From Bacteroidota bacterium (lineage in GTDB: Bacteria > Bacteroidota > Bacteroidia > Chitinophagales > Chitinophagaceae): a stretch of DNA of 64,000 nt. Below the pieces are notes generated by a model, which worked only from the letters and a program-made list of their open reading frames with translations, ran no database searches and had not been told where the DNA came from. Where the stretch lies: assembly GCA_018267705.1 (NCBI GenBank), contig JAFDXX010000004.1, positions 186,001 through 250,000 on the forward strand, given 5' to 3'. Made by a program: the position numbers and the translations under genes. Numbering within the stretch: the first letter of the stretch is position 1; each line of letters opens with the position of its first letter. This document shows, in pieces, positions 17,499 to 46,263 of this stretch.

Positions 17499-19292
17499 AT
17501 GGATAAATTTATTGTTTCGGCACGTAAGTACAGGCCTCAAAATTTTAATACGGTTGTTGGTCAAAGTCATATTACCACTACACTTAAAAATGCTATTCAG
17601 CATAATCAGTTAGCACATGCATTTTTATTTTGTGGCCCACGTGGTGTGGGCAAAACCACGTGTGCAAGAATTTTAGCCAAAACAATTAATTGTGAAAATT
17701 TACAACCCGATGGAGAAGCTTGTAACAAATGCAATAGTTGCAAAAGCTTTAATGATGGAGCTTCTTTAAACATACATGAATTAGATGCTGCAAGTAATAA
17801 TAGTGTTGATGATATACGAAGCTTGGTAGAACAAGTTCGCTTTGCACCACAAGCAGGTAAATACAAAGTATATATTGTAGATGAGGTACATATGCTAAGT
17901 GCCAGTGCTTTTAATGCATTTTTAAAAACGTTAGAAGAGCCACCATCATACGCTATTTTTATATTGGCCACCACCGAAAAACATAAAATACTTCCTACTA
18001 TTTTATCTCGTTGTCAAATTTTTGATTTTAAAAGAATTACAACCAATGATACAGTTGAACATTTACAAGAAATAGTTGATAAAGAAGAAATAAAAGCCGA
18101 TAAACAATCGCTACACATTATTGCTCAAAAAAGTGAAGGGTGTATGCGAGATGCATTGAGTATTTTAGATAAGATTGTAAGTTTTAGTAATGGTATTGTA
18201 ACCTATAAAAACACATTAGAACATTTAAATATTTTAGATGAAGATTATTATTTTAAACTGTTATCTTATTTGCAGCAACAAGATTTAGTTAACGTTATGT
18301 TGTTGTATGATGAAATTAATAATAAAGGCTTTGAAGGAGATTTAGTACTAAACGGATTTGCTGAATTTTTAAGAAATGTATTAGTAAGTAAAGATATAAA
18401 AGCAGCGGTTTTATTAGATGTTGCCGAAGGTATGCACGAAAGATTTACTACTCTAGCCAAAACTACGAATAGCTCTTATATTATATCTGCTTTAAATATT
18501 TTAAATGAAGCAGAAATTAATTTTAAAATGGCACGTAACAAAAAGTTACATGTAGAGCTCACTTTAATTAAACTAAATTTTTTACAACAAGCAATTGATT
18601 TGTCGGTAAATGATGGAAGTATAATTAAAAAAAAACGAGTTGATGCTCCGGCAATCATAAAGTTTAAACCAATACAACCATACTTTGCCAAACAACAATC
18701 AGAAGCCAAGTTATCAATTGAAAAACCAAAAGAAGAAGAAAAGAAACCATTAGCACCAAACAACAATATTGAAATTAAAAATATTGTAACAGAGCCTATA
18801 TTACACACTAAACAACCCATTGCAAGCAACGGCAATAAAAAAGATTTATTAAATATTCTTCGCGAAAGAGCCGGAAGAAATTATATAGTAGAAGAAGTAA
18901 AAGAAGCCTTAGTTTTATCTGAAGAAAAACTGTTGCAATGTTGGAATGAATATATTATTAAATTAGAAACACAAGGCGGAAAGCCAAGTACAGTAAGTAC
19001 CTTCCGCATTGCAAAAATTAATATAATTGATGAACTGAAATTTACTATTTCAGTGAATGCCATAACGCAACAAAAATTTATTGAGCAAGAAAAAATGATG
19101 CTTGCCGATCATATTCAACAAACATTTAATAACCGAGCTATTAATTTTTCTATTGCTGTAGAAGAAGGTGATCAAATAATGATACCTCAACATGTAATGC
19201 TTAACAGCAAACAACGTTTTGAACGCATTGCAGAGCAATACCCTCTAATAAAAGAGCTCAAAGAAAAACTGAAGTTAGAGATTGATTATTAA
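17499..19292 (+). CDS. dnaX: DNA polymerase III subunits gamma and tau
   Basis: This is the 597-residue clamp-loader ATPase. Visible parts are Walker A GPRGVGKT (46-53), the zinc site with cysteines 65, 75, 78 and 81, Walker B VDEVHMLS, and EEPPSYAIFILATTE with the sensor region. Domain III covers about 240-370. The tau-specific C-terminal part (about 380-597) follows a Lys/Pro/Glu-rich linker. At codons 377-379 there is a run of nine A residues directly after domain III; slipping by one base leads to a stop two codons later, giving a 381-residue gamma-like form. That matches how gamma is made in E. coli (frameshift) and Thermus (A9 slippage). The gene is divergent from DUF1800. Confidence 0.95.
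   Translation: MDKFIVSARKYRPQNFNTVVGQSHITTTLKNAIQHNQLAHAFLFCGPRGVGKTTCARILAKTINCENLQPDGEACNKCNSCKSFNDGASLNIHELDAASNNSVDDIRSLVEQVRFAPQAGKYKVYIVDEVHMLSASAFNAFLKTLEEPPSYAIFILATTEKHKILPTILSRCQIFDFKRITTNDTVEHLQEIVDKEEIKADKQSLHIIAQKSEGCMRDALSILDKIVSFSNGIVTYKNTLEHLNILDEDYYFKLLSYLQQQDLVNVMLLYDEINNKGFEGDLVLNGFAEFLRNVLVSKDIKAAVLLDVAEGMHERFTTLAKTTNSSYIISALNILNEAEINFKMARNKKLHVELTLIKLNFLQQAIDLSVNDGSIIKKKRVDAPAIIKFKPIQPYFAKQQSEAKLSIEKPKEEEKKPLAPNNNIEIKNIVTEPILHTKQPIASNGNKKDLLNILRERAGRNYIVEEVKEALVLSEEKLLQCWNEYIIKLETQGGKPSTVSTFRIAKINIIDELKFTISVNAITQQKFIEQEKMMLADHIQQTFNNRAINFSIAVEEGDQIMIPQHVMLNSKQRFERIAEQYPLIKELKEKLKLEIDY
18627..18657 (+). other. Candidate programmed frameshift/slippage site in dnaX
   Basis: A9 at 18627-18635 is read as three Lys codons. 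In the -1 frame, also reached by one added A in the transcript, the next codons are ACG AGT TGA, so translation stops after two residues. In the other frame a TAA follows within about nine codons. Five bases after the A-run a weak hairpin can form (TGATGC, TCCG loop, GC plus ATCA with a bulged A, 18641-18657). A purine-rich GGAAG lies at 18615-18619 upstream. All of this is directly visible; that slippage occurs is inferred from known dnaX genes. Confidence 0.6.
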
Positions 19293-45471: not shown

Positions 45472-46263
45472 ATGTCACTGCTTACTTTCACGTTAATTCA
45501 AACCAATCTTTTTTGGGAAGATAAACAAGCAAATCTTTTAATGCTTGAAAAAAAAATTAATTCTATAAAAGAAAAAACAGAAGTAATTGTTTTGCCGGAA
45601 ATGTTCAGTACAGGTTTTAGTATGCAACCCAAATTATTTGCTGAAACTATGGATGGTATTGGTGTTGAATGGATGCGTAAAATGGCAACTACAAAAAAAA
45701 TTATAATTACCGGAAGTTTAATGATAAAAGAAAATAATGCTTTCTATAATCGCTTAATATGGATGTTACCCAATGGGCAATATGGTTATTACAATAAACG
45801 CCATTGCTTTGCTTATGCACATGAAAACAAACATTATACCGCCGGAAATAAAAGATTAATTGCACAAGCAAAAGGCTGGAAAATAAACCTGCAAATATGT
45901 TACGATTTACGTTTTCCTGTTTGGGCAAGACAACAGAAAAATGATACCAACGAAACCGAGTATGATGTTTTATTATATGTTGCCAATTGGCCTGAAAGAA
46001 GGAATACTGCATGGAAAACATTATTAACTGCAAGAGCCATAGAAAATCAGTGTTATGTTATTGGTGTAAACAGAATAGGAAATGATGCCAATAATATTTA
46101 TCATAGTGGAGACAGTATGGTAATAAATCCGTTAGGAGAAATACTCTACACTAAAGCACATGAAGAAGATATATATACCATTACGTTAAACAAAGAAGAA
46201 CTAATTAATATAAGAAATCAATTTCCTTTTTTAAATGATGCTGATAATTTTAAAATTGTATAG
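45472..46263 (+). CDS. Omega-amidase (YafV/Nit2-like) of the nitrilase superfamily
   Basis: The 263-residue protein has the nitrilase triad: Glu in VLPEMFSTGF, Lys in YNKRHCFAYA and Cys in LQICYDLRFP. The FSTGFSM and AHENKHYTAGN segments are typical of the YafV branch, which hydrolyses alpha-ketoglutaramate and alpha-ketosuccinamate and closes the methionine-salvage/transamination route. No signal peptide; cytosolic. A trans-sulfuration enzyme exists at 61962 but not as a neighbour. The short spacing to the LpxR-like gene (33 bases) allows co-transcription. Confidence 0.88.
   Translation: MSLLTFTLIQTNLFWEDKQANLLMLEKKINSIKEKTEVIVLPEMFSTGFSMQPKLFAETMDGIGVEWMRKMATTKKIIITGSLMIKENNAFYNRLIWMLPNGQYGYYNKRHCFAYAHENKHYTAGNKRLIAQAKGWKINLQICYDLRFPVWARQQKNDTNETEYDVLLYVANWPERRNTAWKTLLTARAIENQCYVIGVNRIGNDANNIYHSGDSMVINPLGEILYTKAHEEDIYTITLNKEELINIRNQFPFLNDADNFKIV

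Follow-up and report, generated by a model that had tools for sequence, protein, structure and literature searches.

The dnaX gene and its A9 run

The window analyzed here is a 64,000-nucleotide stretch of a contig assigned to the Chitinophagaceae. It contains an orthologue of dnaX whose full open reading frame (ORF) encodes tau, as in dnaX of the Thermus type. The ORF scored 446.8 bits against TIGR02397 (NCBIfam dnaX_nterm, cut-off 250) and 479.1 bits against PRK05563 (cut-off 400), and its top-scoring model was PRK14971 at 674.8 bits, slightly below the cut-off of 685. Two further traits of the Thermus type are present: an uninterrupted sense-strand run of at least nine As, and near stops in both other frames, which would end the product at 381 and at 386 to 387 amino acids (aa). 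The features are as follows.

17499..19292, + strand: dnaX, one-ORF form; frame 0 encodes tau (597 codons, 597 aa)
18231..18590, + strand: clamp-loader domain III (Pfam PF12169, residues 245-364), the last domain common to gamma and tau
18615..18619, + strand: GGAAG upstream of the run, seen in the sequence; no support as a signal
18627..18635, + strand: A9 run, putative slippage site, codons 377-379 (AAA AAA AAA)
18636..19289, + strand: tau-only part (linker and C-terminal part)
18641..18643, + strand: TGA stop in the -1 frame (mRNA with one extra A); predicted 381-aa gamma
18658..18660, + strand: TAA stop in the +1 frame (one A fewer or two more); predicted 386- or 387-aa gamma
45548-45556: second coding A9, in a carbon-nitrogen hydrolase ORF at 45472-46263 (PF00795, 129.5 bits)

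The Pfam match to domain III ends at residue 364, 12 residues before the A9 run, in keeping with the sequence-only reading, which had put the run just past this domain. That reading had also assigned the run to codons 377-379, with early stops in both other frames, and had predicted a 381-residue gamma after a -1 reading. The sequence confirmed the first point, and the TGA at 18641-18643 confirmed the second as a predicted product length. A message with one extra A would be read as ...KKK-T-S-stop, giving a gamma of 381 aa and 42.9 kDa, and one with a single A fewer would be read as ...KKNELMLRQS-stop, giving 386 aa. The computed mass of tau is 67.9 kDa.

Transcriptional slippage at an A9 run in dnaX of Thermus thermophilus was reportedly described by Larsen et al. 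in 2000. The window gene is like the Thermus gene in its single tau ORF, its nine As, and its close stops in both other frames. Passages in three papers describe the T. thermophilus case as transcriptional slippage at A9 (PMC1088944, PMC5009743, PMC3711429), with gamma coming from messages with the wrong number of As, and we propose the same route for the window gene. The Thermus run lies seven-eighths through the gene according to a passage in PMC1088944, whereas the window run lies at 63%. Slippage was measured in Thermus, while for the window gene we infer it. In Escherichia coli, dnaX undergoes a -1 ribosomal frameshift at A_AAA_AAG, as outlined in parts of PMC5009743 and PMC3290774; the outcome, a gamma with the first three domains and a tau with all five, is likewise predicted here. 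According to a 2012 review, frameshift signatures in dnaX are missing from most other bacteria (PMC3290774).

The window has a GC content of 31%, and the 2.63-Mb genome contains 187 overlapping A9 matches over both strands. An A9 in one window of 31% GC proves little, and this window holds another A9 in a coding sequence. Chance as the origin of the A9 and its stops is compatible with the window's genome taken alone, and the earlier judgment that the arrangement is hard to credit to chance could not be sustained from one AT-rich genome with a bystander A9 close at hand. The corresponding alternative is that there is no device at all: AAA-rich lysine codons would fall in a basic linker of an AT-rich genome, and the stops would lie close by chance. 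The abundance of A9 in this genome and the second coding A9 both fit that alternative, and relatives were used to weigh it.

Conservation of the run and of the adjacent stops

The bystander A9 in the hydrolase gene served as a control in 25 genomes drawn from the family. Over residues 15-45 of the hydrolase, the A9 was present in the window gene and in none of the 22 relatives whose gene covers the place (one of the 25 genomes had no match, and L348 was left out since the place was not covered), whereas over residues 355-415 of DnaX, a stretch twice as long, an A9 or A10 was present in the window gene and in all 22 matched relatives (23 of 23 including the window; 2 of the 25 genomes had no dnaX match). 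This conservation in relatives argues against chance.

A set of 73 near dnaX genes comprised that of the window, 3 of the genus, and 69 of 80 loci; the set excludes L019, which seems to duplicate L006, the truncated L088, and the distant loci L090-L098. A run of A9-A11 was found in 70 of the 73, window included. The exceptions were L044 (A4), L061 (A8), and L073 (A7), and L044 also lacks the usual TGA and has a TAG one codon further in that frame. Seven near genes have AAA AAA AAG, and six of these still have A9 or A10, with the preceding codon ending in A. The prospect raised by the sequence-only reading, that synonymous AAG codons might break the run in close relatives, did not materialize. 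The close stop was also kept, as that reading had anticipated: 58 of the 73 near genes have their -1 stop at the third codon, the position it occupies in the window (unmeasurable in 2). One of the distant loci, L095, lies on a contig labeled Verrucomicrobia, a label that may be wrong; its dnaX is 42% identical to that of the window and has an A10 run.

The second codon after KKKx encodes Val, Ile, or Leu (GTN, ATH, or CTN) in 55 of the 73 near genes, and 54 of these 55 codons end in T and so form a stop in the -1 frame together with the codon that follows (TGA in 52 genes, TAA in 2). The background use of T in such codons is 40% (1,909 of 4,747; codons 1-361 of the same genes), and the excess corresponds to a binomial probability of 1e-20, a value not corrected for the relatedness of the genes.

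The survey was extended to 218 dnaX genes with 81 family codes, 144 from a class set and 74 more from a phylum draw. The class set held 149 genomes (the window's included) with 146 matches, of which 144 were examined; G016 and G125 matched in part and were omitted. The phylum draw held 99 genomes with 97 matches. Of these, 24 belong to the window's class, 8 of them new and used, and outside the class 66 of 73 matched genomes were examined, with G232 (contig end) and 6 of the 21 genomes of f69 omitted. The labels Bacteroidia and Bacteroidota were inferred from the nearest named records (Chitinophagaceae or unclassified Bacteroidetes), which also make the family suggested by the sequence-only reading plausible. 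The run was measured as the longest A run in 300 nucleotides (nt) from about residue 345-348.

Runs of A9-A12 were found at the border between domain III and the linker in 170 of the 218 genes (A9 in 43, A10 in 114, A11 in 12, and A12 in 1). No gene had exactly A8, and 48 had A7 or less. Runs of nine or more As (A9+) occurred in 128 of 152 genes inside Bacteroidia and in 42 of 66 outside. By comparison, A9+ was absent from all 654 control windows, each of 300 nt, taken within codons 1-300 of these genes; elsewhere, there was one in codons 1-340 (222,360 bp) and there were four in the stretch 60-600 nt past the run (90,424 bp). The survey genes are related, so the counts are not independent, and when one gene per family was drawn at random, A9+ was found in a mean of 60.0 of 81 families.

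At least one sampled gene had the run in 64 of the 81 families. Among the 62 Bacteroidia families, the run was present in every sampled gene in 48, mixed in 6, and absent in 8; the corresponding figures for the 19 families outside Bacteroidia were 7, 3, and 9. The 17 families without a run in any sampled gene include 9 seen in a single genome, and 6 for which 3 or 4 genes each were sampled (f25, f34, f46, f64, f65, and f76). The 48 genes and 17 families without the run indicate that gamma made by slippage is dispensable. In family f15, L116 and L131 share both stops and closely similar flanks, yet one has A7 where the other has A10; slippage may have been lost here recently through removal of one AAA codon.

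Base composition and the encoded peptide were considered as causes of the run. The median GC3 was 0.48 in genes without the run and 0.43 in genes with it, a modest difference in the direction expected if there were no device. The conservation of the run is more than an AT effect, because it is present in 27 of the 41 genes whose GC3 exceeds 0.6. In all, 38 codon strings encode the run, which indicates that the nucleotide run is kept rather than a peptide. No T or G homopolymer of nine or more was found at the site in the 218 genes, and two C runs of this length were seen, each in a gene that carries the A run as well.

The frame of tau could be classified in 167 of the 170 A9+ genes (all but L106, L111, and L212). 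In 158 of the 167, a stop comes within 10 codons in each of the two non-tau frames, compared with a mean of 53.6 and a maximum of 66 in 200 shuffles that replaced downstream codons by synonyms at the gene's own usage. When each family was represented by one randomly drawn gene, stops on both sides were found in a mean of 56.3 of 58.3 classified families. The run and the stops are conserved beyond what protein and codon usage require. Together with the loss of the bystander A9 in relatives, the 38 codon strings, and the 51 genes of reversed organization described below, these counts already contradict the absence of a device, which we now regard as scarcely credible.

One-ORF and two-ORF forms of dnaX

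Tau is encoded in frame 0 in 116 of the 167 classified genes, and gamma is encoded in frame 0 in the other 51. In this reversed form, frame 0 ends just past the run and the C terminus of tau lies in the -1 frame (47 genes) or the +1 frame (4 genes). A C-terminal profile built from one-ORF genes, that of the window among them, found the tau C terminus in the predicted shifted frame in all 51. The same two-ORF organization characterizes the dnaX genes predicted by GeneTack, whereas the window gene has the one-ORF form. PMC3711429 lists 17 such dnaX genes from 12 genera, 12 of them with poly-A; three poly-A cases are named, Chloroherpeton thalassium and two Chlorobium species, and the authors attribute the A10 cases to transcriptional realignment.

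Three near genes (L083, L084, and L085) are also two-ORF. Frame 0 closes directly past the run at 379-385 aa, and the match carries on in a different frame as far as residue 595-597. L083 is recorded as Chitinophagaceae bacterium LY-5, without a metagenome-bin label. Sequencing error was considered as the source of the two-ORF set as a whole and was rejected: some families are two-ORF throughout (f13, 4 of 4; f44, 4 of 4; f3, 3 of 3; f16, 3 of 3), several two-ORF genomes are single contigs (e.g., G085, G191, G202, and G213), and the tau C terminus keeps to one shifted frame in every case. Taken singly, the two-ORF form of L083-L085 may be due to such error. Individual two-ORF genes may also contain a separately started second gene. 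Their first possible tau-frame start codon is found at distances from 3 codons to 100 or more beyond the run, but that arrangement would leave the constant A9+ run at the junction unexplained. An early stop was found in 1 of the 48 genes without the run, L242 (f27, genome of about 0.5 Mb), whose dnaX stops after 346 codons and lacks the A run. L242 may have a reduced genome with a clamp loader built on gamma alone.

Changes between gene forms were counted on a DnaX tree with the site left out. As parsimony minima on a quick tree, there were at least 26 changes between the one-ORF and two-ORF forms (40-49 in 30 label shuffles) and at least 23 changes in run presence (40-48 in label shuffles). 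Gene form and run presence follow descent in part, yet switch repeatedly. Homopolymers mutate readily, and the repeated interchange could be taken as DNA-level phase variation, in which the genomic run length would switch cells between tau and gamma forms. We give this reading next to no weight. The frame state is uniform within families f13, f44, f3, and f16, tau is expected to be essential from E. coli, and near stops on both sides of the tau frame fit mixed messages better.

Slippage by RNA polymerase or by the ribosome

We propose that RNA polymerase would slip on the run and make a mixture of dnaX messages with different A-run lengths. Messages with 9 or 9+3n As would encode tau (597 aa), and messages of other lengths would meet a nearby stop in either alternative frame and yield a gamma of 381-387 aa, which would keep the three clamp-loader domains without the linker and the C-terminal part. 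The A9 run is quite probably a selected slippage site that gives two clamp-loader subunits from one gene via RNA polymerase slippage. The gamma-making slippage device put forward by the sequence-only reading is supported by conservation in relatives; we infer slippage during transcription, its efficiency, and the production and use of gamma from the comparative pattern.

The sequence-only reading had left the choice between ribosome and polymerase open, and the evidence favors the polymerase for four reasons. Run lengths jump from at most 7 to at least 9 in all three codon phases (counts taken on all 218 genes), stops are near and reversed genes occur in both directions, there is no hairpin or Shine-Dalgarno signal beyond controls, and 38 codon strings spell the run. 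The jump lies close to a threshold of nine nucleotides reported in PMC1088944: in a large share of genomes, A/T runs that reach this length show evident selection against them, although the threshold varies and eight As may suffice in some organisms. The near relative L061, with A8, is a point against a clean nine-A threshold. The GeneTack authors read opposite shift directions as pointing to transcriptional realignment (PMC3711429).

Programmed -1 ribosomal frameshifting as in E. coli dnaX, in which tandem lysyl-tRNAs would slip back one base with the aid of a Shine-Dalgarno-like motif and a hairpin, is unlikely. Runs of this length contain slippery heptamers, the first stop is on average nearer in the -1 frame (2.5 codons) than in the +1 frame (4.2), and an in-frame A_AAA_AAG is found at the run in 48 of the 167 classified genes, where a ribosomal contribution is possible. 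The window, unlike E. coli, reads A_AAA_AAA followed by C (AAA AAA AAA CGA) and has no in-frame A_AAA_AAG. The survey runs also differ from the E. coli site in being of at least 9 or at most 7 As, never 8 (218 genes). Among the 180 genes in codon phases 1 and 2, whose in-frame slippery heptamer would need no more than 8 or 7 As, 148 carry at least 9 As, 5 carry 7, and none carries 8. A -1 shift would moreover leave unexplained the selection for a near +1 stop and the four genes with tau in the +1 frame.

The stimulatory elements of the E. coli system gave no signal beyond controls. Downstream folding in the window is weak (-3.4, -4.7, and -5.4 kcal/mol for 50, 55, and 71 nt). Across the 167 genes, the mean z score of folding at the site was -0.47, between those of the two control stretches (-0.59 and -0.18); a hairpin was rejected as a stimulator on this basis, although folding was stronger than in the downstream control, and the downstream hairpin cited in the original case lost its force. 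Shine-Dalgarno-like motifs precede the run in 53 of the 167 genes, compared with 12% of random 18-mers from the same genes, and the mean duplex energy was -3.19 versus -1.51, a comparison to random 18-mers only. The motif count is within the range of 500 synonymous shuffles (46.2 ± 4.2, maximum 59), and a Shine-Dalgarno stimulator was rejected. The GGAAG pointed out upstream of the window run is present at 18615-18619, but such motifs are no commoner than the encoded amino acids demand.

Ribosomes could also lose the frame in both directions by sliding on consecutive AAA codons, which would explain stops in both frames. Passages in PMC4363877 report that E. coli ribosomes slide in vitro and that even three AAA lysines can yield some truncated product, but also that in E. 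coli extract truncated product is robust at A11 and little at A9 or A10. A9 or A10 accounts for 157 of the 170 survey runs. The sliding data come from E. coli and are not decisive for Bacteroidota, and we consider this route improbable, more so than programmed frameshifting.

Sites of this kind are already known, from Thermus and from the two-ORF dnaX genes predicted by GeneTack, and the window gene would add a case. The main text of PMC3711429 has no mention of Chitinophaga, Cytophaga, Flavobacter-, Bacteroides, or Spirosoma; a part of that paper gives 20 Bacteroidetes species in the GeneTack data, and overlap with our survey genes is possible. In the literature searched, no title or opening of an abstract dealt with dnaX slippage across Bacteroidota, and neither the breadth of the site nor its repeated reversal was found in print; subscription literature and the GeneTack supplement lay outside this search, so priority is not established. 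The breadth of the site in the phylum and the repeated reversal of the in-frame product are the part worth following.

We think it likely, with a little less assurance than for the site itself, that A9-A11 slippage is old and very widespread in the phylum, that the frame drifts between tau-encoded and gamma-encoded states, since slippage yields both products whichever is encoded, and that tau depends on slippage in about 3 of 10 run-bearing genes (51 of 167), which are likely misannotated as truncated. Annotation may list just one of two DnaX products. The proposal predicts efficient RNA polymerase slippage at A9-A10 in Bacteroidota, for which the survey offers many natural variants for testing. 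As the site is found in 64 of 81 families and is held by selection, gamma or the gamma/tau mixture would be useful there.
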